Virus record (IMG/VR): IMGVR_UViG_3300041955_001195
Span: 1 to 49,211 of that record
From: a virus
DNA length: 49,211 nucleotides
Reading direction: 5' to 3' (one strand)
Position 1 is the stretch's first letter. Every line of letters begins with the position of its first letter. A program made the position numbers and the translations under genes. Below, piece after piece: positions 1 to 18,027 of this stretch. The notes below the pieces were generated by a model. That model was not told where the DNA came from. It was given only the letters and a program-made list of their open reading frames with translations, and did not search any database.

Positions 1-3000
1 ACAGTGGTTATTCAGGTATATCAGGTTACTCTGGATATAGTGGTTATTCTGGCATATCTGGTTATTCGGGTTACAGCGGAATATCAGGCGCCAGTGGCAT
101 AAGCGGATATTCAGGTTATAGCGGCATAAGTGGAACAAGTGGTATTTCTGGATACAGTGGTTACAGCGGAATTAGTGGATACTCTGGTTATTCTGGCATA
201 TCAGGCGCAAGCGGAATAAGTGGATATTCAGGCTATTCAGGAATTAGCGGAGCTTCTGGTTATTCTGGCTATTCAGGTATAAGTGGGGCTTCTGGTTATA
301 GCGGATACAGTGGCATTTCAGGTTATTCGGGCTATTCTGGCATTAGCGGAGTAAGCGGTATTAGCGGATATTCAGGTTACTCTGGCATCAGTGGGGCTTC
401 TGGCTATAGCGGTTATTCGGGTATTAGTGGAGCCAGCGGAATTAGTGGTTATTCAGGATATTCAGGCATTTCAGGTGCTTCTGGAATTTCAGGTTACTCT
501 GGTTATAGTGGAATATCTGGTACGTCAGGTTATTCAGGATACAGCGGCATAAGTGGCTATTCAGGATATTCAGGTATTTCAGGTTACAGTGGATATTCAG
601 GCGTTAGTGGAACATCTGGCTACAGCGGATACAGTGGTATTTCTGGTTATAGCGGCTATTCTGGTATTAGCGGCACGTCAGGCTATTCAGGATACTCTGG
701 AATTAGCGGATATTCTGGTTACAGTGGAATATCAGGCGCAAGCGGTATCAGTGGTTATTCAGGATATTCAGGTATTAGCGGGGCGTCTGGTTACAGCGGT
801 TACAGTGGTATATCAGGCTATTCTGGGTATTCAGGTATAAGTGGCGCCAGCGGTATTAGTGGTTACTCTGGGTATAGTGGAATTTCAGGTACATCAGGCT
901 ACAGTGGTTATAGCGGTATAAGTGGATATTCAGGCTATTCAGGCATAAGCGGTGCCAGTGGATATTCAGGTTACAGCGGAATTTCTGGTATGTCTGGTTA
1001 CAGCGGCTACTCTGGTATTAGTGGAACAAGCGGATATTCAGGGTATTCAGGCATATCAGGCGCCAGCGGGTATAGTGGATATTCAGGGATAAGCGGTACG
1101 TCTGGCTATTCTGGCTACAGTGGAATTTCTGGCACGTCTGGTTATAGTGGCTATTCAGGAATTTCTGGTACGTCAGGTTACAGCGGATACTCTGGCAAAT
1201 CAGGTTATAGTGGCTATAGCGGTATTTCAGGTTATTCAGGTTATAGTGGCAATTCTACATCAGGTTATTCTGGTTATTCAGGAATAAGCGGAACCAGCGG
1301 ATATTCTGGTTATTCTGGAATATCTGGTACATCAGGTTACAGCGGCATTAGCGGAACATCTGGTTATTCAGGGTATTCAGGAATAAGTGGTTATAGCGGT
1401 TACAGCGGTATCAGCGGAGCTTCTGGCTACAGTGGATATAGTGGTATATCGGGTGCCAGTGGTTATTCGGGTTATAGCGGCATATCAGGTTATAGCGGTT
1501 ATTCAGGTATTTCAGGCGCAAGCGGATTATCGGGTTACTCTGGCTACAGTGGTATTTCAGGAGCCAGTGGTTATAGTGGGTATATCGGCATAAGTGGCGC
1601 TTCTGGCATATCTGGCTATAGTGGATACTCTGGTATTTCAGGTTATTCGGGATATTCTGGAATTTCAGGCATAAGCGGTATGTCAGGTTATAGCGGATAT
1701 AGTGGTATTTCAGGAGTATCTGGCTATAGCGGATATAGTGGCATTTCAGGTACCAGTGGTGTAAGCGGTTACTCTGGTTATTCAGGTATAAGTGGCTATT
1801 CGGGTTATTCTGGAATTAGCGGAGCAAGTGGCATTAGTGGATATTCTGGTTACTCTGGTGTTGCTGGAACATCAGGTTATAGTGGATATAGCGGTATTTC
1901 TGGCGCAAGCGGTATATCAGGTTACAGCGGATATAGTGGCATAAGTGGGTATTCAGGGTATTCAGGCATAAGTGGCGCTTCTGGAATTTCTGGCTATTCT
2001 GGCTACAGCGGAATTTCTGGTTATTCAGGATATTCAGGTATAAGCGGATATTCTGGCTATTCAGGAATAAGCGGAGCATTAGGTATTTCTGGCTACAGCG
2101 GATATAGTGGAATTTCTGGTACTTCTGGATATTCAGGATATTCTGGAATTAGTGGAACAAGTGGCTATTCAGGATATTCAGGAATAAGTGGTATTTCTGG
2201 TTACTCTGGTTATTCAGGAACAAGTGGCTACTCTGGCTACTCTGGTATTAGCGGTTATTCTGGTTATAGCGGATATTCTGGCGTTAGCGGAACATCAGGT
2301 TATAGTGGTTATTCAGGAATTAACGGCGCTTCTGGCATTTCAGGGTATAGTGGATATTCAGGTATCAGCGGAACAAGCGGATACTCTGGTTATTCAGGAT
2401 TAAGTGGAACGTCAGGTTATAGCGGATATTCAGGCATTTCAGGAATAAGCGGTTATTCAGGTTATAGCGGTATTTTTGGAACATCAGGATACAGCGGATA
2501 TTCTGGGTATTCAGGAATTAGCGGAACAAGTGGCTATTCAGGATATTCAGGCATAAGTGGATACTCTGGCATTAGTGGAGCATCAGGTTACAGTGGATAC
2601 TCTGGAATTAGTGGTTATTCAGGATATTCAGGTAATAGCACATCAGGCTATTCAGGATACTCTGGAATTAGCGGAGCAAGCGGCATAAGTGGATATTCTG
2701 GTTACAGTGGAATATCAGGCGCAAGCGGATATAGCGGATATTCTGGAATAAGTGGAACAAGTGGCTATTCAGGATATTCAGGAATTTCTGGCTACAGTGG
2801 TTATTCTGGCGCAAGTGGTATAAGTAGCTATTCTGGTTATTCAGGTATTAGTGGTATTTCAGGCTATAGTGGTTATAGCGGTATTTCTGGCACATCAGGC
2901 TATAGCGGATATAGTGGAATTAGTGGAGCCACTGGAATTTCAGGTTACAGCGGGTATTCAGGTATTTCTGGAATATCAGGTTATAGTGGTTACAGTGGAA

Positions 3001-4748
3001 TTTCTGGAACAAGCGGCGTAAGTGGATATTCAGGTTATTCAGGTATAAGCGGAGCCAGTGGTTACAGCGGATATTCGGGTATTAGTGGCGCTTCTGGAAT
3101 ATCAGGATATAGTGGATATAGCGGAATATCAGGTTATTCAGGCTACAGCGGAATTAGCGGAGCTTCTGGTATTTCTGGCTACAGTGGATATAGTGGTATT
3201 TCAGGAACATCGGGTTATAGTGGTTACAGCGGTATTTCAGGTGCAACTGGCTATTCTGGTTATTCTGGAATTAGCGGATACTCTGGCTATAGTGGTATTT
3301 CTGGAACGTCTGGTTATTCGGGTTATAGCGGCATTTCTGGAATATCAGGATATAGTGGCTATTCAGGTATCAGTGGTACGTCTGGTTATTCTGGATATAG
3401 TGGCATTAGCGGAACTTCTGGTTATTCTGGATATAGCGGTATTTCTGGCGCATCTGGCTACAGTGGATATTCAGGAATTAGTGGGACTTCTGGTTATAGT
3501 GGCTATAGTGGCATTTCTGGTTATTCTGGTTATTCAGGTAATAGTACGTCAGGTTATTCTGGATATTCTGGAATCAGTGGATATAGCGGCTACAGCGGTA
3601 TTTCTGGATTCTCTGGTTATAGCGGATATTCAGGTATAAGCGGAGCAACGGGCACAGGTACATCAGGTTATTCTGGCTACAGTGGAGTTGGCACATCAAA
3701 TGTACAAAATGGTACAGCAGATGGACAAATACTTGCTTGGGTTTCTGCCGCTACTCAATGGCAACACGATACGGATATTTTATTTTCGAATGCGGCGGGA
3801 AATTATGCTAAATTTGATTATGACAGCGCTTATGGGCTTAAATGGAATATAACTAATAATGCGATTTCGTTATATGCCGCCGAAAGTGATATTATAAAAG
3901 GAGCATATTCAGGTGGATTTCTATATACTTATTTACCACAATTAACCACAAATGGATATGTTAAAACTGTAAGTGGTACTGGTCAATTATATGTTGATAC
4001 AAGCAGTAGTGCTTCTGGTTATAGTGGCTATAGTGGTATTTCTGGCGCAGCAGGCGGCGCAGGAAGTTCTGGTTATTCGGGTTATAGTGGAATATCAGGC
4101 TATTCAGGTTATTCAGGTATTTCAGGATATAGTGGTTATAGTGGCATTTCTGGCGCTACTGGAACGGGAACAAGCGGTTATTCGGGATACAGTGGTATTT
4201 CTGGCGCCGCAGGTGGCACAGGAAATTCTGGATATTCTGGCTATTCAGGTATCAGCGGGTATAGTGGATATTCGGGTATTTCAGGCGCAACTGGTACAGG
4301 AAGTTCTGGATATTCAGGCTATTCAGGCGCGGCAGGCAGCGCAGGAAGCTCTGGATATTCTGGTTATAGCGGTATTTCTGGTACTGCTGGCGGTGCTGGA
4401 AGTTCTGGTTATTCAGGTTATTCTGGGTTAAAATCTGAAAGAACGTATACGTGGTCAATAGGAAATCCTGGGTCGGGTACGGTTGTCGGCCCACGTGCCA
4501 ACGCAGCAGGCACTTCAACTCGAATCGATGCTTATTGCGTTGGTGGCACCAGTGTCGATTTTAACGTGTATACAGGTTCACTTGGAGCTGGTGCCGCAGT
4601 AATGGCATCTGATGGCTCTGCAACAACATCTGGCGCAAGTTATAGTTCATTTGTGACGAACGTAAGCGCGGGAGATTGGGTATATTTATATATTGGCGGC
4701 GTGTCTGGCGCAGTAACACAATTAGCCGTCACTTATCTTATTGTGTAA
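1..4748 (+). CDS. Giant Gly-X-Ser repeat (collagen-like) tail fibre protein, 5' end outside window
   Basis: The frame is open from base 3 to the TAA at 4746-4748, giving at least 1,581 codons, so the true start lies left of the window. An in-frame ATG at 990 sits inside the repeats and is not a start. About 1,230 codons are Gly-X-Ser triplets with X mostly Tyr, Ile, Ala, Thr or Val (unit like SGYSGYSGISG). A non-repetitive island lies at about 3691-4008, a second repeat block with Gly/Ala-rich breaks at 4010-4428, and a unique C-terminal domain starting LKSERTYTWSIG at 4429-4745. Gly-X-Y periodicity is known from phage fibres, but proline is absent, so a true triple helix is uncertain. The unique tail is probably a trimerisation or receptor-binding head. 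The next gene starts 3 bases downstream. Fibre role is inferred from composition and neighbour. Confidence 0.8.
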   Translation, partial: SGYSGISGYSGYSGYSGISGYSGYSGISGASGISGYSGYSGISGTSGISGYSGYSGISGYSGYSGISGASGISGYSGYSGISGASGYSGYSGISGASGYSGYSGISGYSGYSGISGVSGISGYSGYSGISGASGYSGYSGISGASGISGYSGYSGISGASGISGYSGYSGISGTSGYSGYSGISGYSGYSGISGYSGYSGVSGTSGYSGYSGISGYSGYSGISGTSGYSGYSGISGYSGYSGISGASGISGYSGYSGISGASGYSGYSGISGYSGYSGISGASGISGYSGYSGISGTSGYSGYSGISGYSGYSGISGASGYSGYSGISGMSGYSGYSGISGTSGYSGYSGISGASGYSGYSGISGTSGYSGYSGISGTSGYSGYSGISGTSGYSGYSGKSGYSGYSGISGYSGYSGNSTSGYSGYSGISGTSGYSGYSGISGTSGYSGISGTSGYSGYSGISGYSGYSGISGASGYSGYSGISGASGYSGYSGISGYSGYSGISGASGLSGYSGYSGISGASGYSGYIGISGASGISGYSGYSGISGYSGYSGISGISGMSGYSGYSGISGVSGYSGYSGISGTSGVSGYSGYSGISGYSGYSGISGASGISGYSGYSGVAGTSGYSGYSGISGASGISGYSGYSGISGYSGYSGISGASGISGYSGYSGISGYSGYSGISGYSGYSGISGALGISGYSGYSGISGTSGYSGYSGISGTSGYSGYSGISGISGYSGYSGTSGYSGYSGISGYSGYSGYSGVSGTSGYSGYSGINGASGISGYSGYSGISGTSGYSGYSGLSGTSGYSGYSGISGISGYSGYSGIFGTSGYSGYSGYSGISGTSGYSGYSGISGYSGISGASGYSGYSGISGYSGYSGNSTSGYSGYSGISGASGISGYSGYSGISGASGYSGYSGISGTSGYSGYSGISGYSGYSGASGISSYSGYSGISGISGYSGYSGISGTSGYSGYSGISGATGISGYSGYSGISGISGYSGYSGISGTSGVSGYSGYSGISGASGYSGYSGISGASGISGYSGYSGISGYSGYSGISGASGISGYSGYSGISGTSGYSGYSGISGATGYSGYSGISGYSGYSGISGTSGYSGYSGISGISGYSGYSGISGTSGYSGYSGISGTSGYSGYSGISGASGYSGYSGISGTSGYSGYSGISGYSGYSGNSTSGYSGYSGISGYSGYSGISGFSGYSGYSGISGATGTGTSGYSGYSGVGTSNVQNGTADGQILAWVSAATQWQHDTDILFSNAAGNYAKFDYDSAYGLKWNITNNAISLYAAESDIIKGAYSGGFLYTYLPQLTTNGYVKTVSGTGQLYVDTSSSASGYSGYSGISGAAGGAGSSGYSGYSGISGYSGYSGISGYSGYSGISGATGTGTSGYSGYSGISGAAGGTGNSGYSGYSGISGYSGYSGISGATGTGSSGYSGYSGAAGSAGSSGYSGYSGISGTAGGAGSSGYSGYSGLKSERTYTWSIGNPGSGTVVGPRANAAGTSTRIDAYCVGGTSVDFNVYTGSLGAGAAVMASDGSATTSGASYSSFVTNVSAGDWVYLYIGGVSGAVTQLAVTYLIV
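3..3690 (+). repeat. Degenerate in-frame triplet repeat array encoding Gly-X-Ser
   Basis: About 1,229 consecutive codons repeat a 9-codon or 12-codon theme (SGYSGYSGI with inserted SGA or SGT). The protein pattern is nearly perfect, but DNA copies differ because Ser alternates among TCA, TCT, TCG, AGT and AGC, Gly among GGT, GGC, GGA and GGG, and Tyr between TAT and TAC. Rare breaks are NSTSGYSG (for example near 1250, 2632 and 3540), VAGT near 1860, SGKSG near 1195 and IFGT near 2472. Such an array is prone to recombination and to assembly error, so its exact length should be treated with care. Confidence 0.95.
4010..4428 (+). repeat. Second Gly-X-Ser repeat block with Gly/Ala interruptions
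   Basis: The SGYSGYSG theme resumes after the non-repetitive island and is regularly broken by Gly/Ala segments such as GAAGGAGSSG and GATGTGTSG. It leads directly into the unique C-terminal domain of the fibre. The breaks may act as flexible hinges; that is inference. Confidence 0.9.
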
Positions 4749-4751
4749 TAT

Positions 4752-5441
4752 ATGGCAACTTTTTCACAAACTTGGACAAACCCAACAGGAAACCCACAAA
4801 ACATTACATTACCGTTTGGCGTAAGTAATTTAGTTATACAATGTTGGGGAGCTGGCGGCGGTGGCGCATCGATGAACAGCACAGGGTTCGGTGGCGGCGG
4901 CGGCGGTGGTGCTTTTGCTCAAACGAACAGCGCTTCTGTTGCTTTTGGTACCGTATATAGCGTTTATGTTGGCGTGGCTGGCGGGAAAAGTTTAAATGTT
5001 GGAAATACCTATGTACAACAAGGGAGTAATAATATTTGCCTTGCGGCTGGCGGTTTTACTCCTACGGCAAATAATTCAAGTGGGGCTGCTGGCGGTAACT
5101 CACTTCTCTGTATCGGCAATGTCACATACAGCGGCGGTAATGGTGGCAAAGGAAAAAGCCCAGATTCTGGCGGTGGTGGCGGTGGGGCTGGAACAGGAGC
5201 CAATGGCGGCGCTGGCGGTTCCCCAGCGGGCGGTAGCGGGGGCGCCAGTGGTGGCGGTAATGGTGGTAACGGACTCGCAGCGGGCAATGGAAGCCCTGGA
5301 AGTCCTTATGGCGGCGCTGGCGGCGGTTCTTCAAGCATTGGGCTTTCCACCGTGGGTGGTAACGGCGCAAATGGCGCGGTCACAATCAGCTACACCTATG
5401 AAACAAACATCGTACTTAATGTGGTGTCCACGAATTTTTAA
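4752..5441 (+). CDS. Glycine-rich tail fibre / adhesin-like protein
   Basis: 229 aa. The N-terminus (about residues 8-40) reads TWTNPTGNPQNITLPFGVSN followed by LVIQCWGAGGGG. This resembles the glycine-rich domain found in many phage tail proteins (pattern: aromatic-rich start, P-x-GV, V-x-CWGAGGGG). The rest is dominated by GG and GGGG runs separated by short strands (GNVTYSGGNGGKG, GAVTISYTYE), as in polyglycine sandwich adhesins such as the T2-type gp38. The start codon lies 3 bases after the stop of the repeat fibre, so the two are probably co-translated and the product may cap or assemble on the fibre tip. The last 4 bases overlap the end of the opposing gene. No signal peptide is seen. 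Receptor binding is inferred from family resemblance and position. Confidence 0.72.
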   Translation: MATFSQTWTNPTGNPQNITLPFGVSNLVIQCWGAGGGGASMNSTGFGGGGGGGAFAQTNSASVAFGTVYSVYVGVAGGKSLNVGNTYVQQGSNNICLAAGGFTPTANNSSGAAGGNSLLCIGNVTYSGGNGGKGKSPDSGGGGGGAGTGANGGAGGSPAGGSGGASGGGNGGNGLAAGNGSPGSPYGGAGGGSSSIGLSTVGGNGANGAVTISYTYETNIVLNVVSTNF

Positions 5442-6781
5442 TTGTGGACGCAGCGAACGGAAATAGCGTAAATTTTAGGGCTTGCCCCACGGAATACAGT
5501 GGCACTATAGTTATTTAGATCATAACTTAATGCATTACCAGCAAGAGAGGTTCTTGTGGAAGTCCAAAACACGGCGTCATTATAGATATTACTAAAGAAA
5601 CCCCCATTCCATCCACCGCTGGGTAATCCCGTGAACCCCAACGAATCCGTAGCCCCCGCATTCGGATATGCCCAATGCGCGAGCCCGCTTTCTTTCATAT
5701 ATCCGCCAAAAAATGGTATGCTATCTATGTCAATGGTATCACCGCCCTGCCACTTCATAAAAACTTCCCAATCGTGGTCGCAAGAAACGCGCCAACCCGA
5801 CGGGCAGATTCCCTGTACTGTATCGGTATTTCCCGTGGTATCGAACTGCAACGCTTCACCCCACACATAAAGCCCACCGTATACATCGCAATTGCTTGCC
5901 ACGTTGTTATAACAATATTTTGTATAACCTGTTTGCGTTGTGGGTGCCGTTATCTGGGTTCCTACATTTATATTTTCTGCCATCCAGATAATTGTGTCGT
6001 TTGATGTGGTATCCGAAGGGCTTTTTGATTTTGACGAATGTTTTACAATAGTAAGCGTGGCGTAGTTTCTACCGTCACGGTCTTGACATTGGACAAAATT
6101 AAACGCAACGGTTTTGCTTGTTGTCGGTGAATCCGTAAGCACGGCTTTATCCGATGTTGTTGATGTGGCTCTGTATTTTAAAATGTCGCCTTTCTTGTAA
6201 TTCAATGTTTTAATCGTTGTATCTTCAACAGCATAGCTTTCTTTAAGGCGGCTTGTAACGGGTGAGTAAGAAACGTATGAAATTTTAGGCTCGTTATTCT
6301 CCCCCGTACTTAAAAGCGTGGCGGCATAATTAAAGCCTTGACCTTTCACTTGTACAAGGTACATTCCCGTTCTCACGTCCGTAATACGAAAGCAATATTT
6401 CCCAGTGGAAACCGATGTGGTGGTTTGGCATATAAGTTTACCCAGTGCGTCAATAATATTAATGCTGATGGTTCCGTTTTCAGGCGCCATAAAACTCAAA
6501 ATTGATTGGCTTGTCAACGGATTAGGATAAATTGACAAACCCGCCGTTGCGTTTAATGATTTAATGCCCGTGATATACAGGCTATCACCAAGTAAAAGCA
6601 GCTTTTCGTTGTTTCCGTAAAGCATAATGGTGCCAGCGTGTCCAGAAACGGAATCTAGGTTGGTAACTTTAAGTGCGCTGATTGGTTTATTTCCAGTGAA
6701 ACTGATGTAGATTGAATCTTGCTGTGCCAACGCGAACGTTGAAACTATTAACAAGAAAAAAGACATAAAAAGTGTTTTCAT
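5438..6781 (-). CDS. Secreted FISUMP-domain protein with internal T9SS sorting-like domain
   Basis: 447 aa. Residues 1-19 are a clear signal peptide (MKTLFMSFFLLIVSTFALA). Residues about 82-156 match the Por secretion / type IX sorting domain: IYPNP, then a hydrophobic strand, DALGKL, and TGMYLVQV. Residues about 264-447 match the Fibrobacter succinogenes major paralogous (FISUMP) domain: IIWMAENINVGT, CPSGWRV, W-x-VF, FTGLPSGGW, FWTST and a C-terminal SVRCV, a C-type-lectin-like fold. The sorting-like domain is normally C-terminal in Bacteroidetes proteins; here it is N-terminal to FISUMP, so it may be only a beta-sandwich. The gene runs against its neighbours and has its own host-type promoter. 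It looks host-derived and could act at the cell surface (lysogenic conversion, superinfection exclusion) or on the virion. Its DNA seems more GC-rich by eye; I did not compute this. Confidence 0.8.
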   Translation of the reverse strand: MKTLFMSFFLLIVSTFALAQQDSIYISFTGNKPISALKVTNLDSVSGHAGTIMLYGNNEKLLLLGDSLYITGIKSLNATAGLSIYPNPLTSQSILSFMAPENGTISINIIDALGKLICQTTTSVSTGKYCFRITDVRTGMYLVQVKGQGFNYAATLLSTGENNEPKISYVSYSPVTSRLKESYAVEDTTIKTLNYKKGDILKYRATSTTSDKAVLTDSPTTSKTVAFNFVQCQDRDGRNYATLTIVKHSSKSKSPSDTTSNDTIIWMAENINVGTQITAPTTQTGYTKYCYNNVASNCDVYGGLYVWGEALQFDTTGNTDTVQGICPSGWRVSCDHDWEVFMKWQGGDTIDIDSIPFFGGYMKESGLAHWAYPNAGATDSLGFTGLPSGGWNGGFFSNIYNDAVFWTSTRTSLAGNALSYDLNNYSATVFRGASPKIYAISVRCVHN

Positions 6782-6837: not shown

Positions 6838-6851
6838 ATTATTTTACGATT

Positions 6852-6899: not shown

Positions 6900-9800
6900 A
6901 TGAAGTATTCCATTATCATTCCAACATATAACAATTGTGACAGATTACTTAAACCTTGCGTTGACAGCATTATAAAGTATACTAATTTAGATGACGCAGA
7001 AATTATTGTCGTGGCAAATGGGTGCACAGATAACACGCGTTTATATGTCGCTCAAATTTCTATTATTAATCCAAATATTAAATTGTTATGGTTTAATGAC
7101 GCCATTGGCTACACAAGGGCAACTAACGCAGGCATTGATGTAGCACAGGGAGAATACGTTATTTTTATGAATAATGATGTGACTCTACTCCCGCAGGAAA
7201 AAAATAAATGGCTTGATATGCTTCAATCGTTATGGGATTCAGAAAAAAATACTGGCGTGGTTGGGCTTTCCGAAGAAATAATGTATGGTAGAAAATTTGT
7301 TACTTTTTATTTTGCAATGACATCACAAGCTGTCATAAAAAAAATAGGCAAGCTGGACGAAGTGTTTATTACTGGCGGTGAAGATATTGATTTCTGCTTT
7401 AGAGCGCAACAGGCTGGTTATGAAATTGTATCCGAAAAAAAATTATATGACGAATCAGGTAATAGAAATCATATGACAAATTTCCCTATGAACCATATAG
7501 GTGAAGCAACCATATCAACTCTTCCAAAAATAACGGATAAGCATAACACATTGGGGCATAAAATATTGAACAATAAATACAATAGTACGAAATACGCTAT
7601 TATTATTCCTACATATAATCACTGCGACGACTTACTGAAACCCTGCATTGAAAGTATTATCGCCAATACTAATAAACCCAACAAAGAATCATTGTTTGAC
7701 CCGATTGTGGACGTACACGTGATTGTTGTTGCAAACGGTTGTATCGATAACACGGGTGAATATCTGACGTCATTGGCTCAACGTGATTTACCGTTTACAT
7801 TGCATAGTATCTGGGATAAAGAACCGTTAGGATACACCAAAGCAGTAAACAGGGGCATTCGTTTATCGATAGAACTGCAATCCGACTATACTATTTTGAT
7901 GAATAACGATGTGACTTTAATGGACTTTGCTAAAAATAATCAATGGCTTGAAATGCTAACCAAGCCGTTCACAAGTTCAAAAGTTGGAATGACGGGTACC
8001 AGTAAAATTATTGACGAAACAACAAGGCAACCGTTTATCATTTTTTATATGGCAATGATAAAAACGTCTATTTTCTCAAAAATAGATGTTTTAGACGAGG
8101 TTTTTAATCCAGGGTATGGAGAGGACATCGACTTTGCGATAAGGCTACAGAGGGCAGGATATGAGATTGTACGGGTACCTGGCGATGGTGTTGGGCATAC
8201 CTATACAGAATTCTTTCCACTGGTACACGGAGCCGAAAAAACTATGCACGATGAAAAATCAAACATTAAAGGTGTGTTTGGATTGTCTTGGAGTGAGATT
8301 ATTGCTCGAAATCAAGCTGTTCTGCGTGACAGATATGTTATAAACCCACAGCCTGATTTGCCAGAAGGCTGGTTTGATATTGAGGACATAAACGAAATGC
8401 GGGAAATGATAAATCAAATGCCAGATGGCGGCACAATGATTCAGCTTGGTGTGTGGGCGGGTCGTTCTGTGTTTTGCGCGGCAGATATTATTAAAAAAAA
8501 GAACATTAAAGTTATTGCTGTGGACACTTTTACAGGGTCTGATGGCGATGACTCGTATATTCTTGAAACGAGCGCCAGATTAAATATGGAAAAAATATTT
8601 CTGGAAAACGCAAAAGCATTTAAAATTGCCGATAATATTCAAACGCTTAAAATGACAACTACCGAAGCCGCAATTAAGGTGCCAGATAAAAGCGCTGATT
8701 TAATATTCATCGACGCCAATCATAATTACGAATTTGTAAAAGCCGATATCGCTAACTGGAAAAACAAAGTTAAAGACGGCGGTAAATTATCAGGACACGA
8801 TTTTTGGTTTATGGACGTACAAAAAGCTTTATTTGAGAATTTCCACCCAAAAGATATAGTAACGGTTCACGGTATTTGGCAACTACGAACAAAAACAGGT
8901 AAAATATACGATTGTTTTATGTTTTACAATGAACTGGATATTTTGGATATTCGTTTAAATGAGCTTTACGACGTTGTTGATAAATTTGTATTGGTAGAAG
9001 CGCGGTTTACCCATCAGGGAAATCCAAAACCGCTTTATTATGAAAAAAATAAAGAGCGGTACGCCAAATTTGCAGATAAAATCACGCATATCGTGGTGGA
9101 TGAAATGTGCGCAACAGACAGCCCGTATATAATAAATCAAAAAAACAAATTATATTTTGAAATCAACTACTGGGGGTTTATCCGCGAACGGTACCAACGT
9201 GACGCCATTGCCCAAGGTTTGGTTGACTGTAATGATAATGATACGATTATCATTTCTGACGTGGACGAAATTGTAAATCACGAAGCGATTAAACGTTACG
9301 ATATCTCAATGGGTCACTGCGCATTGGATATGCGGCTATTTTATTACAAATTGAACTGTGAAGGCAATACCAACTGGCACGCTGCGCACATAATGCCGTA
9401 TAAATTCATCAAAGACAAATATCCAAGTGATGTTCGTTATGATGACCAAGACACCAGCGCAACCATACCTAACGCTGGCTGGCATTTTAGTTATTTATCA
9501 TCTACGGTTGAAAATATTACAGATAAAATTAAATCATTTTCCGTGGAAGAATTGAATATTCCAAGTATTGTCGACGCTGAACACATTGCACAATCGGTGG
9601 AAAATGCCACAGATATTTTTAACAGGGGAATTCAATTCAAATACATCAAAATTGATGATACTTACCCCGCTTACGTTGTGAATAATAAAAACCAACTTAT
9701 CAAAAAGGGATTAATCAAATCAAATATGGCTGAAATAAATAAAACTAAATACAGCATAATTATTCCGACCACGGGAAATTATCTCAATAAATTGGACGTG

Positions 9801-12800
9801 TGTTTGAGTACGCTTATGGATGTCACGGATATGTCAAATGTTGAATTAATTATCGTGGCTAACGGCGTTACAAATGAAACAAAAGAATATTTGAGAGTAG
9901 TTGAACACCAAGACGATATTAATATAACAACTTTATACTCACCAGAACCATTGGGCTTTCCCAAGGCTATTAATATGGGAATAAAGCGTTCTACTGGTGA
10001 TTACGTGGTATTATTAAATGACGACGTGGTGTTTATCCCGCAGTCAAAAAATGAATGGCTCGATATAATGTCGGCGCCTTTTACTACGCCAGAAAATGTT
10101 GGCGTTACAGGACTAAAATTACTGGGGTCATCATTCAGCAAACAAGAATATTTAATGTTTTTTTGCGTGATGTTTCGTCGTAGTGTAATTGACGTAATCG
10201 GTTTATTAGATGAAAATTTTTCACCTGCATTTGTGGAAGATGAAGAATATTGTTTACGCGCAACGCAATTTGGTTACAAGATACAAGAAGTTGGCGCGCA
10301 AGTGTATCATAAATCATCTGCAACATTAAATAATTTCGAAGAAAAACGCCAGATTGTAAAAAGAAACAGATATTACCTGCTAAATAAATATTTTCCAAAC
10401 GATTTGGTTAATTTTATTGTGCCAACCTTCAATAGGCACGACGAACTGCGCCGTGCTCTTAATTCAATTGAAGCACAAACATACGATAAAATAAAAGTAT
10501 GGGTATGCGCTGACGGGCACGATGAAAAAGTGAAACAAATTGTTGAAGAGTTCAACGATAATTCGGAGCATAAAGTGTATATTTATCTGGCATTACCGCA
10601 GCACGAAGGTTTGCTCGGAAGCAAGCCGCGAATGATGGGTATTGACGCACTGGCGAATACGGGCGTCGTATGCTTTTTAGATGATGACAATACTATTCAA
10701 CCAACATACGTTGAAAAGCTGTTTAAAGCTATTCGTAGTGATGGCGGGTATCAAAAGCACGAAACATATGTTCCTGATTCGACAATTATTTCCTATTGCG
10801 TGATTAATCATAGTCACTCTAATAAACCGATTCCTATTCCTGGTCACGTACAGGGAATGTTCGAATATAGTAATATTGACACGCTGAATATTATGGTCAA
10901 TTGCCAAGTTGCCAAGCTATGCAAGGCGAAATGGCTGCACGTGGCGGGGCAGAAAATAACGCACGATATCGACTTTATTCAGGAATGTGCCAAAAAAGGG
11001 AAATCCGTGTTCGTAAATGAAATACTTGCCGACCATCATATGTCGTCGGACAAAGTAAACGGTAATAATGTGGAACCAGCTAACGCTGTTGCGTGGAATA
11101 ATTCATCGCGTATCACTATTGGGTATATCAAACACAATGAAGAAATGTTAAAAGCCAATTTGCAGCCCAGTATTGACGCGCTAACAAATAAGAATTATGA
11201 TGTAATAAGAACCGACGATAAATTATGCCCAGCAACAAATTATAATCATATTATTGAGCAGTCGCCAAACGATTATATTCTATTATTGCACGAAGATGTA
11301 ATTTTCAGTCCTAATTTTCTGGATAAAATTTGGGAAACCATTAAACTGTATCCTAATTTTGGTGTATTAGGTGTAGAAGGCGCAATCAATAGTGAAGATT
11401 TAGCAATTTTTATTCGTTATGAATGGGCTGTCGCCACAATATCGAAGATATTAACTACAATTGATTCAGCAGCAATTGTTATTAATAAAAAACACGGATT
11501 GAAATTTGATGATAAAATCTTTAACGAATATCACGCATACGTGGAAGATTATTGTATGCAAGCCAGAGCGTTAGGATTGGAGCGCCGTACTCTTTTAATT
11601 AACACATATCCTGCTCATTGGACTGGATATAAAGACCCTGCCAATTATTTCATACATAAAGCTCAAACCTGTAACACCGTTGGATATAATTGGGGCAATT
11701 TCGTGGAATGTTACGAGAAATTGCAAAAAAAATGGGCTAAAAAACACGGTAAAATCTATGATTGTTTCCAGTTCTACAATGAATTGGATATTCTGGATAT
11801 CCGTTTCAATACGTTATACGAACACGTGGATAAATTTGTCTTGGTGGAAGCCAGATTTACCCACCAAGGTAAAGAAAAACCGTTATATTTTGAAGAAAAT
11901 AAGGCGCGTTATACCCAGTTTTCAGATAAAATTGAGCATATCATACTGGATAAGATGATTCCGTGGGATGACCCATATATTTTAAAGCAAAAAAATAAAC
12001 AATATTTTGAACGGGGCGACCAGAATCTTATTCGTGAACGTTATCAACGGGATATGATGGTACGCGCGTGGACAAATTGCACTGACGATGATATTATCAT
12101 TATTTCTGACGTGGATGAAATTATTAACCCAGAAGCGCTTAAAAAATATGACATATCAATGGGTTATACCGCTTTCGTTCAAAGGCTATTCTACTACAAA
12201 TTAAATTGCGAGATATTTGTACCGTGGGATAAAGCACGTATTATGCCTTACAAATTCATTAAAGACAAATATCCAAGTGACGTACGTTTTGACCTTGATA
12301 ATGATGTTAAAAACAAAATTGAAAACGGGGGATGGCATTTCAGTTATCTTTATAATGACCCGACATTAGTGGCTGATAAAATTAAGAGTTTCTGCCACGC
12401 AGAATTTAATACGCCTGAAATTACCGATGTGAAACGTATTGAACAAATTATCGAACGCGGTGAAGATTTATACGGCAGGGGGCACACAATGCACTATGTG
12501 CCAATGGATGATAATTACCCAAAATATATTTTAGATCGTAAAGATTACTATTATCAAAAAGGTTTAATTAAACCCATCTATAATAATGATAATCTGAAAG
12601 CTTATGATAACTGGACATACGACGAAATTTTTGATAAAAATTTGTATGATATACAGCCAGTAGATATTCAAGGTAAAACTTTAATTGATATAGGCGCAAA
12701 TGTGGGAATGTTTGCGTTAAGATGCGCTGAACTTGGTATGAAACACGCACACTGTTTTGAACCACAAAGCGGCAACTACAAAAAGATGCTGGAACTGATT

Positions 12801-15734
12801 GCGGGGAAGCCAAATATAACGCCATATAAAATGGCTATTCTGGATGGGAGTGTAAAATCTGTTCATATGCGTAATGACGGTGTTTGTTCCGATATTTACG
12901 GCACCGATAAAGATGAAGAAGTGCCGTGTATGTCTTTAAATGATGTGATGAATCTGTTTGTACTGCCAAAATCCGACGTGGTACTTAAACTGGACTGTGA
13001 AGGGAGTGAATATGAAATTATTTATAATTCGCCAAAAGAATTAATTCAATCTTTTGAAACTATTTTTATTGAAATTCATAATGTTTTAAATCCTAAATAC
13101 GTTGGTAAAGCCAAAGAATTGGGTGCATATATTGAATCTCTTGGATTTGACAGGATTCCAGCTAAAATAGCTGCGGGTTACTGGACAAATGACGGCAAAA
13201 CATTTAATGAAGGCGATAATATGATTGCCAAATACAAGCGCAAAGCTTTTATTAAAGCTTTATCCGAATTTACCCAAGACGAAATACGTTTATTAGATGC
13301 GCCAACTTATGACGAAATTTATAAAGTCAATGTGTATGGTATGGACAAAGCGGAAATCAAAGATAGCATTGTTCTTGATATCGGAGCTAATCACGGGCTG
13401 TTCAGCCTGCGTGCGCTGGAAATGGGCGCAATAGAATGCTATGCTTTTGAGCCAGAAAAAGAAAATTATTCAGTAATGATGGGGTTAATTAAAAAACATC
13501 CTGCCATTAAACCGTTTAAAGTTGCTGTGTCCGACGGCGCTGTTTCAATGGTGCATATGTTTTCGGAAAATGTTACATCAAACATCTGGGGCGCCGAAAC
13601 AGGGGAAGCGGTTAAATGTATTTCATTGGTGGAAGCTGCGTCGTACGCCAATTTTGGCACGCATAAAAAAATATTGAAATTGGATTGTGAAGGGTCAGAG
13701 TATGAAATATTGATGCATTCTCCCGCGGACGTGGTGCAACAATTTGATATTATTTATCTGGAAATCCACGACAATATGAATCCTAATTTTAAAGGTCAGA
13801 CAGATAATTTGCTGAATTATATGAAATTCATTGGTTTCGACGTCACGCATCAAGGCCCGCAATGGGGCGGCTGGTTTCCAGACGGTACATTTGCGCCCGC
13901 GCCCATAAAAGTATTCAAATTGCAACGCGCGCGCACACCCGAACGTTTGCCCGACAGGAAACAAAGAATTTATGACTGTTTTATGTTCAACGATGAATTG
14001 GACGTGTTGGATATTAGATTTGCTGAACTGGGCAGTCTTGTAGATTATTTTGTGATTGTTGAGTCACATTTAACGCATTCTGGTAAGCCTAAACCGCTTT
14101 ATTTCAAAGACAACGAAACACGATATGCTAAATACGCAGATAAGATACGCCACATTGTGTTCGATGATATGCCGCAGACAGACAATGCTTGGCACAGGGA
14201 AAGTCATCAGCGCGACGCCTGTGCTCAAGGATTATATGACGCCAAGGATTATGATATTATTATATCTGGCGACGCTGATGAAATTCCAAAAAAAGAAGTT
14301 CTTGCCGCATATAACACAAAGCAAGGCGTAGTGGCGGTTGAAACCAAATATTATTTCTACTTTCTGAATTGTGAACGTCAGGATAAAGGTACCACACATC
14401 TGCGCCTACTTCCGTATTATATTCTAAAGCCATACACATTCTGTTATTTCAGGTATAAAGATTATCCGATGATTACGGACGGCGGGTGGCATTTCAGTTT
14501 TATCGGCGACGTAAAGCAGATAAAGAAAAAAATTGAAAGTTATGCTCATCAGGAATATAACACGCCACATTTTACCGATGAAACAAGGCTGGAAAAGATT
14601 ATAAATGAAGGCGGCGACATTTTAGAGAAAGGAATGATTTTCAAATTCATTGATATTAATGAAAAGTTTCCTAAATTTATCCAAGAAAACAAACAGAAGT
14701 TTATTGATAAAAAATATATTAAGCCTGTTATTAATAAAAAAGAAATTAATACAAATCGTTTGATTGAATTGAATCCTACCTTATTTAAAGAAATATTTGA
14801 ACTCAACCAATATTATCTGTTCGAAGAAGATGTGAAAGGTAAGATATTTGTGGACGTAGGCGCTAATTACGGCTACGTGGCTCTATTGGCAGACAAATTA
14901 GGCGCAAAAAAAATTCTTGCATTTGAACCTAATTCAAATAATTATAAAATACTTGAAGAGCTTACCGCGGGTTATGATAATATCATTACTTACAAACAGG
15001 CGGTGTATAATTCTGCGGATAAAATCAGGATAACCGATGCTGGCATTACATCCAATATATTTAAAACATCTGAAAAGGATGAAGAAATTCCAGCAATATC
15101 ATTAAGGCAGATAATTGATTTGATACCATCAAATGAGCCTGCGGTATTAAAACTGGACTGCGAAGGCGCCGAATTTGATATCATTTACAAAGCGCCAAAA
15201 GAACTTGTGCGGCGTTTCGATATATTGTACTTGGAAATTCATAATGATATGGCGCCAGAATACTTAAACGGAAGTGATAATTTGATAGCTTATTTGAGTA
15301 AAATAGGCTTCATATCTGAACGATTACCGTTCGTATCAGGAATTTGGACGGCAGATGGTGTATTTCACAAAACAAATAACACATTTTATAAAAGTAAAAG
15401 GGATATTTTAACTGAACAGCAATTACGGCTGCATCTGGACTGCGGTGCGGACGTCAAAGAAGGTTATTTAAACATTGATGTAAGCCATCCTAACGCCGAT
15501 ATGTGGTGTGATAAACTCCATTTACCGTTTCCAATCGCATCAGTAGATAAAATATGGGCGCATATACGAGATGATGAATTTTTCACTAATGAATTTTCTA
15601 AATTAAGAAACATTTGGTGGGAGCTATTAAAACCAGGCGGAACTTTAATGCTCACACCGCCACTGGACGGCACAAATATAATTCCCACAGGATATTTAAG
15701 CATAATAACACATAAACCAAAGATTCAAGAATGA
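6900..15734 (+). CDS. Giant multi-module glycosyltransferase/methyltransferase polyprotein
   Basis: 2,944 aa from the ATG at 6900, where the first GT2 motif starts at once (MKYSIIIPTYN). Modules by residue: GT2 1-229; GT2 230-480; class I methyltransferase (Methyltransf_24-like; IQLGVWAGRS, LIFIDANHNY) 482-667; GT17 668-945; GT2 951-1165; GT2 1169-1400 (FLDDDNT); GT2-like 1404-1615 (LLHEDVIF); GT17 1618-1895; FkbM methyltransferase about 1898-2115 (DIGANVGMF, KLDCEGSEYEI); FkbM about 2117-2353; GT17 2356-2620 (SGDADEIP); FkbM about 2622-2830; short Methyltransf_11-like about 2833-2944 (LHLDCG, LLKPGG). GT17 modules share IYDCF-x-F-x-x-ELD and (D/G)-x-DEI. Catalytic acidic motifs are mostly intact, so several modules may be active. 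The likely role is building a methylated glycan on virion protein, DNA or host surface. The last module looks shortened where an endonuclease gene follows. Confidence 0.85.
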   Translation: MKYSIIIPTYNNCDRLLKPCVDSIIKYTNLDDAEIIVVANGCTDNTRLYVAQISIINPNIKLLWFNDAIGYTRATNAGIDVAQGEYVIFMNNDVTLLPQEKNKWLDMLQSLWDSEKNTGVVGLSEEIMYGRKFVTFYFAMTSQAVIKKIGKLDEVFITGGEDIDFCFRAQQAGYEIVSEKKLYDESGNRNHMTNFPMNHIGEATISTLPKITDKHNTLGHKILNNKYNSTKYAIIIPTYNHCDDLLKPCIESIIANTNKPNKESLFDPIVDVHVIVVANGCIDNTGEYLTSLAQRDLPFTLHSIWDKEPLGYTKAVNRGIRLSIELQSDYTILMNNDVTLMDFAKNNQWLEMLTKPFTSSKVGMTGTSKIIDETTRQPFIIFYMAMIKTSIFSKIDVLDEVFNPGYGEDIDFAIRLQRAGYEIVRVPGDGVGHTYTEFFPLVHGAEKTMHDEKSNIKGVFGLSWSEIIARNQAVLRDRYVINPQPDLPEGWFDIEDINEMREMINQMPDGGTMIQLGVWAGRSVFCAADIIKKKNIKVIAVDTFTGSDGDDSYILETSARLNMEKIFLENAKAFKIADNIQTLKMTTTEAAIKVPDKSADLIFIDANHNYEFVKADIANWKNKVKDGGKLSGHDFWFMDVQKALFENFHPKDIVTVHGIWQLRTKTGKIYDCFMFYNELDILDIRLNELYDVVDKFVLVEARFTHQGNPKPLYYEKNKERYAKFADKITHIVVDEMCATDSPYIINQKNKLYFEINYWGFIRERYQRDAIAQGLVDCNDNDTIIISDVDEIVNHEAIKRYDISMGHCALDMRLFYYKLNCEGNTNWHAAHIMPYKFIKDKYPSDVRYDDQDTSATIPNAGWHFSYLSSTVENITDKIKSFSVEELNIPSIVDAEHIAQSVENATDIFNRGIQFKYIKIDDTYPAYVVNNKNQLIKKGLIKSNMAEINKTKYSIIIPTTGNYLNKLDVCLSTLMDVTDMSNVELIIVANGVTNETKEYLRVVEHQDDINITTLYSPEPLGFPKAINMGIKRSTGDYVVLLNDDVVFIPQSKNEWLDIMSAPFTTPENVGVTGLKLLGSSFSKQEYLMFFCVMFRRSVIDVIGLLDENFSPAFVEDEEYCLRATQFGYKIQEVGAQVYHKSSATLNNFEEKRQIVKRNRYYLLNKYFPNDLVNFIVPTFNRHDELRRALNSIEAQTYDKIKVWVCADGHDEKVKQIVEEFNDNSEHKVYIYLALPQHEGLLGSKPRMMGIDALANTGVVCFLDDDNTIQPTYVEKLFKAIRSDGGYQKHETYVPDSTIISYCVINHSHSNKPIPIPGHVQGMFEYSNIDTLNIMVNCQVAKLCKAKWLHVAGQKITHDIDFIQECAKKGKSVFVNEILADHHMSSDKVNGNNVEPANAVAWNNSSRITIGYIKHNEEMLKANLQPSIDALTNKNYDVIRTDDKLCPATNYNHIIEQSPNDYILLLHEDVIFSPNFLDKIWETIKLYPNFGVLGVEGAINSEDLAIFIRYEWAVATISKILTTIDSAAIVINKKHGLKFDDKIFNEYHAYVEDYCMQARALGLERRTLLINTYPAHWTGYKDPANYFIHKAQTCNTVGYNWGNFVECYEKLQKKWAKKHGKIYDCFQFYNELDILDIRFNTLYEHVDKFVLVEARFTHQGKEKPLYFEENKARYTQFSDKIEHIILDKMIPWDDPYILKQKNKQYFERGDQNLIRERYQRDMMVRAWTNCTDDDIIIISDVDEIINPEALKKYDISMGYTAFVQRLFYYKLNCEIFVPWDKARIMPYKFIKDKYPSDVRFDLDNDVKNKIENGGWHFSYLYNDPTLVADKIKSFCHAEFNTPEITDVKRIEQIIERGEDLYGRGHTMHYVPMDDNYPKYILDRKDYYYQKGLIKPIYNNDNLKAYDNWTYDEIFDKNLYDIQPVDIQGKTLIDIGANVGMFALRCAELGMKHAHCFEPQSGNYKKMLELIAGKPNITPYKMAILDGSVKSVHMRNDGVCSDIYGTDKDEEVPCMSLNDVMNLFVLPKSDVVLKLDCEGSEYEIIYNSPKELIQSFETIFIEIHNVLNPKYVGKAKELGAYIESLGFDRIPAKIAAGYWTNDGKTFNEGDNMIAKYKRKAFIKALSEFTQDEIRLLDAPTYDEIYKVNVYGMDKAEIKDSIVLDIGANHGLFSLRALEMGAIECYAFEPEKENYSVMMGLIKKHPAIKPFKVAVSDGAVSMVHMFSENVTSNIWGAETGEAVKCISLVEAASYANFGTHKKILKLDCEGSEYEILMHSPADVVQQFDIIYLEIHDNMNPNFKGQTDNLLNYMKFIGFDVTHQGPQWGGWFPDGTFAPAPIKVFKLQRARTPERLPDRKQRIYDCFMFNDELDVLDIRFAELGSLVDYFVIVESHLTHSGKPKPLYFKDNETRYAKYADKIRHIVFDDMPQTDNAWHRESHQRDACAQGLYDAKDYDIIISGDADEIPKKEVLAAYNTKQGVVAVETKYYFYFLNCERQDKGTTHLRLLPYYILKPYTFCYFRYKDYPMITDGGWHFSFIGDVKQIKKKIESYAHQEYNTPHFTDETRLEKIINEGGDILEKGMIFKFIDINEKFPKFIQENKQKFIDKKYIKPVINKKEINTNRLIELNPTLFKEIFELNQYYLFEEDVKGKIFVDVGANYGYVALLADKLGAKKILAFEPNSNNYKILEELTAGYDNIITYKQAVYNSADKIRITDAGITSNIFKTSEKDEEIPAISLRQIIDLIPSNEPAVLKLDCEGAEFDIIYKAPKELVRRFDILYLEIHNDMAPEYLNGSDNLIAYLSKIGFISERLPFVSGIWTADGVFHKTNNTFYKSKRDILTEQQLRLHLDCGADVKEGYLNIDVSHPNADMWCDKLHLPFPIASVDKIWAHIRDDEFFTNEFSKLRNIWWELLKPGGTLMLTPPLDGTNIIPTGYLSIITHKPKIQE

Positions 15735-16468
15735 AAAAAGTTTATTTTACCCGAATTTGTCCAAAATGCGGTAAAGATATATTTTATAAAACAAAAAGCG
15801 CATTAATCTATAGAACTAAAAAAAATTCTAATTGTAAAAATTGTATAAACGCGGGGCGAACACCTTGGAATAAAGGTATACATCATTCTAATGAAACCAA
15901 GCAAAAAATAAGCGAAGCCAATAAAAACCCTTCCGCGGAAACAAGACAAAAAATGAGTAAATCTCTAAAAGGAAAAACACCTTGGAACAAAGGTAAAAAG
16001 ATGGAAGAAGTGTTTGACGCCGAAAAAATTAAAGAAATAAAACAAAAAAACGCTTTAGCACATACAGGTAAAAATAATTATTTATTTGGTATGAAGCGTT
16101 CTACGGAAAGTAAATTGAAAATGCGTTTGTCGGCTATCAAAAGAATAAATAATAATATTAGCAACGGCGGTCAAATTCAACCCAGATATAATCCTGTCGC
16201 TTGTAATTATTTTAATCGTTTAATGGAACAAAATGGTGTACATATTCAACACGCGGAAAATGGTGGTGAATTTTTTATAAAAGAACTTGGATATTGGGTT
16301 GATGGGTATGATGCGGAAAATAATGTTGTTTATGAATTTGATGAAAGTCATCATTATAGCTCTAATGGCACGCTTAAAGAAAAAGACGCCATAAGGCAAC
16401 AAGAAATTGAAAATATTTTAAAATGTAAAATTATACGTATAAAAGAATCAAATTTAATTTTATTATGA
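15731..16468 (+). CDS. NUMOD3 homing endonuclease with Vsr-like (EDxHD-type) nuclease domain
   Basis: 245 aa. Residues 9-40 form a zinc ribbon (CPKCG ... CKNC). Residues about 42-125 hold repeated NUMOD3 DNA-binding motifs (TPWNKG, SNETKQKISEANK, AETRQKMSKSLKG, TPWNKG, NYLFGMKRSTES). The C-terminal part reads VVYEFDESHHY ... KEKDAIRQQEIENIL, typical of phage homing endonucleases of the PD-(D/E)xK / Vsr-like EDxHD class (I-Bth0305I group). The gene joins its neighbours by ATGA stop/start overlaps at both ends (15731 and 16465), so it is embedded in the glycosylation operon without interrupting expression. It is a selfish mobile gene; its insertion may have shortened the last methyltransferase module upstream. 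Confidence 0.8.
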   Translation: MKKVYFTRICPKCGKDIFYKTKSALIYRTKKNSNCKNCINAGRTPWNKGIHHSNETKQKISEANKNPSAETRQKMSKSLKGKTPWNKGKKMEEVFDAEKIKEIKQKNALAHTGKNNYLFGMKRSTESKLKMRLSAIKRINNNISNGGQIQPRYNPVACNYFNRLMEQNGVHIQHAENGGEFFIKELGYWVDGYDAENNVVYEFDESHHYSSNGTLKEKDAIRQQEIENILKCKIIRIKESNLILL

Positions 16469-17514
16469 ATCGGATTACGGCAACAGTTTCAACTCGCAAC
16501 AGGTATTTTACTACTCTACCGCTATGTTTGACGGCTATCGCAAACCAAACCAAGGTGCCCGATGAGTTAATTATTTATGATGACGGGGAACACCGCGATT
16601 TGCGGCAGGAACCAACCTATCAAAATATATTTTCTCATTTGAGCAAAAGAAAAATTGATTGGCGTGTGGAATGGGGAGCTGGTGAAGGTCAGGTGAAAAA
16701 TCACCAACGAGCGTTAACAGAAGCAAAACACGAATTAATATGGCGATTAGATGATGATAATGTTCCAGAAGCAAATGCGTTGGAAGTTTTATTCGGAGAA
16801 TTGGGAAAACAAACAGGCGCTATTGGCGGGTTAATATTAAATCCGCAAATAGACCTGCGTCCAAATAAGATGGCGTCGTCAAAAATCGAAGATATTTTTC
16901 TTGGAATTAACGAACAATGGTACCCACACGAAAAATCCAGCATTAAATCAGTTGACCATTTATACAGTTCATTTTTGTTTAGAAAAGAAGCCGCCCAGCA
17001 CGGATATAATACACAGCTTTCACGCGTCGGGCATAGGGAAGAAACCATTTTTACTTACGAAATGAAACGTAAGGGCTGGAATCTTGCCGTTACGCCGCAT
17101 TGTGTAACTTGGCATTACCACGCGCCCGCTGGCGGTATTCGCGATAATACAAATAATGATATGTGGAATCACGATGAAATCATATTTAAAGAATTATATA
17201 AAAACTGGGGCGTAAAACAAACTCAATATTGCCATATCGTGTTGAATAACGGACTTGGCGACCATTATATGTTCAAAACTTTAATGCCAGAAGTACTCGC
17301 AAAATATAAGGGGCATAAGATTTTACTGTCATCCTGCTTCCCTGAATTGTTCGAAGAATATGAAGGCGTACATCTGTTGACAATTGCTGACGCTATATTG
17401 TGTTACGCGGAATATATTAGTAATTTTGACGTCTACAAATGGATGGTTGATAATAATTGGAAGGGTCATTTAATTGACGCCTATAGAGCATTATATAAGT
17501 TAAATCAAACATAA
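16465..17514 (+). CDS. GT2 glycosyltransferase fused to N-terminal half of a GT9-like transferase
   Basis: 349 aa. Residues 1-225 are a GT-A fold family 2 enzyme: start ITATVSTRNRYFTTLPLCL, nucleotide-binding DELIIYDDG, acidic motif LIWRLDDDNVPE, and a late VTWHYHAP segment. Residues about 230-349 read as the beginning of a family 9 (heptosyltransferase-like) enzyme: HIVLNNGLGDHYMFKTLMPE followed by ILLSSCFPELF. The matching C-terminal GT9 half is the next gene, 3 bases downstream. The start overlaps the endonuclease stop in ATGA. The product probably adds sugars in the same pathway as the large polyprotein. Confidence 0.8.
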   Translation: MNRITATVSTRNRYFTTLPLCLTAIANQTKVPDELIIYDDGEHRDLRQEPTYQNIFSHLSKRKIDWRVEWGAGEGQVKNHQRALTEAKHELIWRLDDDNVPEANALEVLFGELGKQTGAIGGLILNPQIDLRPNKMASSKIEDIFLGINEQWYPHEKSSIKSVDHLYSSFLFRKEAAQHGYNTQLSRVGHREETIFTYEMKRKGWNLAVTPHCVTWHYHAPAGGIRDNTNNDMWNHDEIIFKELYKNWGVKQTQYCHIVLNNGLGDHYMFKTLMPEVLAKYKGHKILLSSCFPELFEEYEGVHLLTIADAILCYAEYISNFDVYKWMVDNNWKGHLIDAYRALYKLNQT

Positions 17515-17517
17515 ATT

Positions 17518-18027
17518 ATGAGTATAGTATTAATCAGTCCGTTCAGTAATATGATGAGAAACGGAGCTCAAAACGCGAAAAACTACCCATACTGGCAGGA
17601 ATTAATTGTAAAATTAAAAAAATTCGCCGAAATAAATGAAATCATTCAAATAGGAATAGGAAATGAATATCGTTTTGAAGGCGTTGTGCACAGATTTAAT
17701 CAACCATTAAAAGAAGTTGAAAAACTGGTGCGTAATGTCGACGTATGGATTTCTGTGGACAATTTTTTGCCACATTTATGCAACGCGCAAAAAGTGCCGA
17801 CCAGAGGTGTTGTCCTATTTAGTAGGTCAGACCCCGCCCATTTTGGCTATAAACACAACATCAATCTATTAAAAGATCGTAAGTATTTACGCCCAGACCA
17901 GTTTATTATTTGGGAACAATGCCCGTATGTGGAAGATGCTTATGTAGACACTCAAACTGTGATTAATGCCGTGTTCGATATCATAAAGCCGAAGCCGCCG
18001 ATGATGATTACTGGAACAACTCATTAA
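17518..18027 (+). CDS. C-terminal half of a GT9 (ADP-heptosyltransferase-like) glycosyltransferase
   Basis: 169 aa. It starts at the second Rossmann domain of family 9 enzymes: VLISPFSNMMRNG, then KNYPYWQELIVKL, a middle region ending LVRNVDVWISVDNFLPHLCN (the usual D-x-G-P-x-H-L-A-A region) and GVVLFSRSDPAHFGY. The N-terminal half of this fold is at the end of the preceding protein. The two halves may assemble into one split enzyme or descend from a fused gene cut by a stop and restart. The gene belongs to the island operon; a new promoter follows it. Confidence 0.72.
   Translation: MSIVLISPFSNMMRNGAQNAKNYPYWQELIVKLKKFAEINEIIQIGIGNEYRFEGVVHRFNQPLKEVEKLVRNVDVWISVDNFLPHLCNAQKVPTRGVVLFSRSDPAHFGYKHNINLLKDRKYLRPDQFIIWEQCPYVEDAYVDTQTVINAVFDIIKPKPPMMITGTTH

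Follow-up and report, generated by a model that had tools for sequence, protein, structure and literature searches.

A single open reading frame (ORF) in a virus genome fragment encodes a 2,944-aa chain of fused glycosyltransferase (GT) and methyltransferase (MT) modules, and the reading we favour, with moderate confidence, is that a T4-like phage of Bacteroidota uses the chain, as a soluble tethered multi-enzyme of the cytoplasm, to put methyl-capped glycans on its own Gly-X-Ser fibre or fibres. The window, the whole stretch of DNA analysed, is a linear IMG/VR virus record of 49.2 kb. The fusion of intact modules, the GT-A folds, the shuffling of modules among phages and the linkage of one GT2 subfamily to Gly-X-Ser fibres are established by observation.

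The ORF extends from an ATG at 6900 to a stop at 15734 on the + strand and stays open across 2,944 codons without an internal stop, compared with a longest open frame of 160 codons among 50 base shuffles of the same chain DNA. An in-frame TTG at 6825 could add 25 residues; the sister gene described below likewise begins at the equivalent ATG. GC content by codon position is similar all along the ORF (GC3 0.29–0.42). Pfam searches returned GT17 three times (302 bits), GT2, FkbM three times, Methyltransf_24 and GT2_5, all in one frame, and PHROGs and NCBIfam searches agreed with this module content. Iterated HMMs resolved 13 modules, so that the single frame of about 13 GT and MT modules proposed in the first-pass annotation was borne out. 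These comprise three GT2 modules of one phage subfamily, two other GT2-like modules, three GT17 modules, three FkbM modules, one Methyltransf_24 (MT24) module and one degenerate C-terminal class-I methyltransferase. The chain and its relevant neighbours are arranged as follows.

3–4748, + strand: fibre gene with collagen-like Gly-X-Ser repeats, incomplete at the window edge, proposed acceptor (repeat count, profile searches)
4752–5441, + strand: glycine-rich (Gly_rich_2) fibre-type protein between fibre and chain (profile searches)
6900–15734, + strand: whole multi-module glycosyltransferase/methyltransferase ORF, 2,944 aa, stop included (ORF, Pfam, HMMs)
6900–7583, + strand: module 1, GT2, GT-A fold, NND and EDID motifs (HMM, motifs, AlphaFold pLDDT 93.6, best PDB Z 20.0)
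7584–8366, + strand: module 2, GT2 (HMM, motifs)
8367–8864, + strand: module 3, Methyltransf_24, LGVWAGRS and FIDANH (Pfam, motifs)
8880–9734, + strand: module 4, GT17a, DVDE (profile match, motif, AlphaFold pLDDT 93.5)
9738–10394, + strand: module 5, GT2 (HMM, motifs)
10395–11099, + strand: module 6, GT2-like (GT2b), DDDN (Pfam, HMM, motifs)
11100–11714, + strand: module 7, GT2_5 type (PF13712), HEDV (Pfam, motifs)
11730–12569, + strand: module 8, GT17b, DVDE, recent duplicate of GT17a (profile match, tree)
12570–13229, + strand: module 9, FkbM methyltransferase a (Pfam, motifs)
13230–13934, + strand: module 10, FkbM methyltransferase b (Pfam, motifs)
13944–14744, + strand: module 11, GT17c, DADE, sister to a GT17 module of L004 (profile match, tree)
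14745–15434, + strand: module 12, FkbM methyltransferase c (Pfam, motifs)
15435–15731, + strand: module 13, degenerate shortened Methyltransf_11-like (MT11) domain (alignment with sister modules)
15731–16468, + strand: NUMOD3 homing endonuclease, separating the chain from the GT2 gene that follows (not present at the equivalent place in the sister)
16465–17514, + strand: free-standing GT2 gene, conserved cassette (homologue fused at the C-terminus of the L004 chain)
17518–18027, + strand: GT9-like gene, conserved cassette with the preceding GT2 gene (profile and sister comparison)

Diagnostic motifs are intact in 12 of the 13 modules, namely xxD and ED or equivalent in GT2, DxDE in GT17, D(I/V)GANxG and KLDCEG in FkbM, and LGVWAGRS/FIDANH in MT24. 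The first-pass annotation had described the motifs as mostly intact and would have been overturned by a loss of catalytic residues in most modules; only module 13 proved degenerate. In this module LDCG replaces LGCG, the xxHxxEH motif is gone and, relative to the modules of the sister phage, the C-terminal part is absent; it abuts the NUMOD3 homing endonuclease ORF, the insertion of which may have damaged it. The three GT17 modules each matched PF04724 with 97–117 bits against a cut-off of 26 (DVDE, DVDE and DADE), while PF00535 (GT2) scored 233 bits against 23.3. Three stretches matched the FkbM profiles PF05050 and TIGR01444 (112 bits, cut-off 22.7; 220 bits, cut-off 37.7), with DIGAN/DVGAN and KLDCEG present in all three.

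Structure prediction, which had been suggested as a check, was run on one GT17 module (module 4) and one GT2 module (module 1), and AlphaFold gave confident GT-A folds for both (pLDDT 93.5 and 93.6, respectively). The model of module 1 matched PDB entries with Z up to 20, including polypeptide GalNAc-transferases (Z 18.9, rmsd 2.5, 200 residues aligned), and O-antigen and heparosan enzymes matched about equally well, several GT2 enzymes reaching Z 17–20; the fold match alone names no acceptor. The GT17 model matched generic GT-A enzymes only (Z about 10–11), and these matches therefore do not indicate an acceptor; no GT17 sequence match was found in the PDB even at E ≤ 1. A search for transmembrane segments found no convincing one in the chain.

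The window also encodes a terminase, a T4-type portal, a prohead protease and a gp23-like major capsid protein (MCP), identifying a T4-like phage, and the chain sits between the fibre and the terminase/portal genes. The portal gene (22332–26324) contains two in-frame inserts at sites that are both empty in the sister phage: an HNH-bearing, HINT-like insert (about 22602–23561, ending FSHN/T) and a LAGLIDADG intein (about 23987–25097, ending VVHN/S); in the sister portal a third, different site is occupied by an insert (L285 454–1728). On the minus strand at 5438–6781 lies a gene for a phage protein with an apparent signal peptide, a mid-protein T9SS C-terminal sorting domain and a Fib_succ_major domain, placed behind a perfect Bacteroidota-type promoter at 6838–6807. 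Eight promoter-type sites of the form TTTG-N18-22-TANNTTTG were counted against 2.5 expected (0/100 shuffles), and Flavobacterium immuto phages are among the MCP relatives. Taken together, the T9SS/Fib_succ_major protein, the promoter-type sites and the MCP relatives suggest from sequence that the host belongs to Bacteroidota. A 4.6-kb contig binned as Mucilaginibacter, probably a phage contig, carries a GT2 gene and the same downstream GT2/GT9-like pair as the window (L294:258–2904) and gives a hint in the same direction.

Scans with GT17 and GT2 module alignments yielded 159 loci, whereas the whole chain as a single-protein query against viral contigs matched L004 alone. At least four fused modules occur in 16 distinct phage clusters (nucleotide clustering), and the window chain is the longest phage chain seen; the rarity claimed for such enzymes in the first-pass annotation is thus relative. 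Other long fused chains have 2,494 aa and 11 modules (L134/L138, on contigs of 370–494 kb), 2,393 aa and 10 modules (L004), 2,025 aa (L086) and 1,978 aa (L007), and many of 1,078–1,501 aa take the form GT2(3-4)-MT11-FkbM. The L004 chain is flanked by short genes of repeated WYLNGKLHRxDGPAxEY units (L004:194–610, 7844–8628).

A scan with the MCP alone found one sister phage, contig G001 (loci L285 and L290), the MCP of which is 89% identical to that of the window. At the same locus it encodes a 1,149-aa GT2-MT24-GT17-MT11-GT17 protein and a 406-aa GT2-MT11 protein, within flanks syntenic with those of the window (GT2 gene, 72% identical; GT9-like gene, 57%; terminase; portal), and it retains both a Gly-X-Ser fibre and a chain. 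Between the two, three consecutive large ORFs with RCC1-like WGxxxxGQLGDNS repeats are found (L290:1974–8602). In the window, the sister and L294 the flanking GT2 gene stands alone, whereas in L004 its homologue (48% identical) is the last module at the C-terminus of the chain, and a GT17 relative is a separate gene in Synechococcus phage S-B43, indicating that modules switch between free and fused states.

Module order and number differ among the window, the sister, L004, L134, L086 and L007, and the conserved module order of a collinear, PKS/NRPS-like assembly line was not found. The ordered sugar-and-methyl pathway of the first-pass annotation is therefore supported in its sugar-plus-methyl part, the natural reading of the modules, but not in its order, since relatives shuffle modules and the sister splits them over two genes. 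Module phylogeny, also proposed at that stage, likewise divided the claim of internal duplication: the GT17a/GT17b pair represents one clear duplication (support 1.0), but GT17c pairs with an L004 module (0.998), GT2-1 with an L086 module (0.998), and the FkbM modules are intermixed on the tree with L086 and L135 modules. An origin of the sister chain by crossing-over between paralogous window modules gained no support in a column-by-column test. A conserved initiator GT2 at one chain position was also rejected, as the tree showed no consistent position in the long chains; the first modules of short GT2-GT2-MT11 chains are close on the tree to single GT2s adjacent to fibres.

The window fibre, 2.2 kb upstream of the chain, has at least 1,581 aa and 450 GXY triplets in runs of at least eight, 428 with Ser in Y and 225 with Tyr in X. 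Among virus clusters found by GT2 alone, such a fibre ((GXY)≥8) lies within 10 kb in 26 of 37 (nucleotide clustering), so that a hydroxyl-bearing Gly-X-Y fibre with Ser in Y is encoded together with the enzymes, as expected for collagen-like glycosylation. The same linkage appeared under protein clustering, with a Gly-X-Y fibre ORF at ≤10 kb in 25 of 41 clusters; 24 of these 25 pairs share a strand, the fibre is upstream in 20, and 11 are separated by ≤54 bp. Controls gave far lower counts: 5/48 viral clusters found by GT17 (Fisher p = 1.2e-8 versus GT2-found) and 1/75 clusters of bacterial or archaeal GT2 relatives (p = 1e-15). The single bacterial exception, on a contig binned into a Nitrospirae MAG, is probably a phage contig (L295:4350–9965), in which tail-like genes surround a double GT2 gene (766 aa) and, 34 bp away, a (GYS)n fibre gene (1,095 aa). 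A further control with T4-like MCP loci (fibre at 2/80, GT module at 9/80) is weak alone and adds little, comprising only 7 independent nucleotide clusters (2/7, p = 0.08).

A reciprocal search with DNA of the GYSGYSGIS repeat found a GT in 25 of 120 stored pieces (median 8 kb), and many Gly-X-Ser fibres may accordingly lack one; all 25 are on the same strand and 15 lie within 140 bp. In linked fibres Ser or Thr occupies Y in ≥68% of triplets at 44 of 45 loci, X is aromatic, aliphatic or Thr, and Pro is almost absent. Such a fibre is present in 12 of the 16 clusters with at least four fused modules. Across 84,980 bacterial and archaeal genomes, hardly any close relatives of the chain GT2 occur, and phages are almost the only carriers of the subfamily.

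The genomic context thus strongly supports a virion protein as the acceptor, and specifically the Gly-X-Ser fibre. We infer the acceptor, the donor sugars, the initiating module, the order of action and a fibre-stabilising or masking role. In the proposed route, glycosylation of the repeat would begin at Ser/Thr with a GT2 module of the type also found alone beside fibre genes, and the glycan would then be extended by the remaining GT2-type and GT17 modules and capped at its hydroxyls by the FkbM and class-I methyltransferase modules; the downstream GT2 and GT9-like genes may belong to the same pathway. Fusion could hold the enzymes at fixed stoichiometry close to an acceptor that is long and repetitive, and could allow the glycan type to be swapped quickly via module exchange. 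Several points weigh against the fibre reading. The window fibre is not directly adjacent to the chain, a Gly-rich gene and an opposite-strand gene intervening, and GT17 modules by themselves are little linked to fibres (5/48). Moreover, the fibre region also houses host-range cargo of phages, so that linkage is not proof of an enzyme and its substrate.

Among the alternatives, the chain appears unlikely to act on a polysaccharide of the host surface (LPS or capsule), as it might in order to prevent superinfection. Such a role has precedents in pelagimyophage GTs of the tail-fibre hypervariable region, read as LPS modification (PMC7029224), and in jumbo-phage GT clusters classed as capsule modification (PMC7824862), and the best NCBIfam relatives of the chain are polysaccharide GTs, all below the cut-off. 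However, the chain has no convincing membrane segment, and the scanned neighbours include no flippase or Gtr cassette; as for O-antigen conversion of the Gtr type, no gtrA or membrane gtr family was present among them, the resemblance being confined to GtrB-like GT2 similarity. The GT2 subfamily is rare in bacterial genomes, and its Gly-X-Ser fibre linkage, which is specific and not shared by GT17-found loci, argues for an acceptor other than LPS or capsule. An equally doubtful alternative is that other virion proteins (capsid or other tail proteins) are glycosylated and the fibre is merely a neighbour. The position of the chain between fibre and terminase/portal genes fits this, as do the GT and O-methyltransferase genes of mycobacteriophage Corndog, flanked by portal and protease genes and proposed to act on the capsid (PMC4351075). 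In relatives, however, it is the Gly-X-Ser fibre gene that neighbours the GT, frequently 54 bp away or less, and T4-like MCP loci seldom have such a fibre (2/80) or a GT module (9/80).

Still less probable is modification of phage DNA with sugars and methyl groups on hypermodified bases. T4 has a deoxynucleotide monophosphate kinase gene and makes modified DNA, and such a gene (PF21448) is present in the window at 40001–40624; one GT2 module also has weak TAGT similarity in Pfam, but this match falls short of the cut-off and could be expected of any GT2. Pfam and PHROGs recognised no base-modifying gene such as one for a TET/JBP enzyme or a hydroxymethylase in the 49-kb fragment, many ORFs of which have no assignment, and DNA as acceptor has no support in the window. 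That assembly or gene calling joined separate genes into a false long ORF is very improbable. The record does derive from a short-read metagenome assembly with duplicated modules (GT17a and GT17b are 76% identical over 217 nt), yet all twelve junctions are in frame with no stop, codon statistics are even, and other contigs independently carry fused chains of 1,078–2,494 aa, contrary to the frameshift or assembly error that the first-pass annotation had named as its possible undoing.

Beyond the favoured reading of the chain as a fibre-glycosylating multi-enzyme, we tentatively suggest a broader possibility, which we hold less firmly: a widespread, unnamed phage system in which the serines of proline-free Gly-X-Ser fibres are glycosylated and methylated by a phage-specific GT2 together with extension modules, which join in differing orders to form chains with as many as 13 enzymes, module shuffling diversifying the glycan. 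The glycan might replace Pro/hydroxyproline as a stabiliser of the proline-free repeat, a role suggested by analogy because glycosylated Thr has a known stabilising effect in collagens, as cited in PMC3368898. E. coli prophage collagens have unusually high Pro and are unglycosylated when recombinant (PMC3368898). No description of phage GT/FkbM/collagen chains of this kind was found in the open-access literature. Phage GTs are usually assigned to DNA or host-surface modification; for this large phage-specific group the linkage suggests fibres of the virion itself as the acceptor. If correct, the chain would be among the longest GT/MT fusions known in a virus. It would make the synthesis of complex glycoproteins in bacteria accessible through one gene, and would raise the questions of whether a collagen-like fibre that lacks proline can be supported by O-glycosylation and by what means phages diversify the glycans on their surface.

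Several known systems share parts of this design. An Anaerolineae locus (L306:6155–14575) encodes a giant 2,807-aa methyltransferase and GT2 fusion (MT23-GT2x4-GT4-TPR), showing that giant GT fusions are not exclusively viral; unlike the chain, it is bacterial, lies in a sialic-acid-type operon, has a TPR tail and shows no GT17 or FkbM among its best 25 Pfam matches. K4 chondroitin polymerase and heparosan synthase 2, which rank among the top matches to the GT2 modules in sequence and fold, likewise carry two GT2/GT-A active sites per chain, but they make repeating free polysaccharides and have no methyltransferases. Synechococcus phage S-B43 (MN018232, L006) resembles the window in that its tail-fibre genes precede a series of glycan genes on the same strand, among them the GT17 relative and an O-methyltransferase, although these are about 14 separate genes, sugar epimerases included, rather than one fused chain. 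Corndog gp35–gp38 are also a phage GT and O-methyltransferase set in the virion gene region, found in infected cells (PMC4351075), but are separate small genes for which the capsid, not the fibre, is the proposed target.

For the acceptor, BclA of the Bacillus exosporium offers a functional analogy only: the tetrasaccharide on its collagen-like region has a methylated sugar at its end (PMC6222408) and, as would be the case here, the repeat is O-glycosylated on hydroxyl residues, but on Thr of a Pro-Thr-Gly repeat in a cellular protein and by separate enzymes. Nearest in design, by analogy, appear to be two PBCV-1 proteins, A064R, which has two rhamnosyltransferases and ends in an O-methyltransferase, each biochemically shown (PMC9614988), and A111/114R, with three GT domains (PMC9614988, PMC7826918). 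Both are soluble single viral polypeptides with several GT domains that build virion-protein glycans without the ER-Golgi, and the chain is likened to them by design, not by domain homology; they differ from its thirteen domains in having three, in belonging to a eukaryotic virus and in making the N-glycan of a capsid. The chain shares with A064R the union, in a single soluble viral protein, of several GT and MT domains whose motifs are intact.
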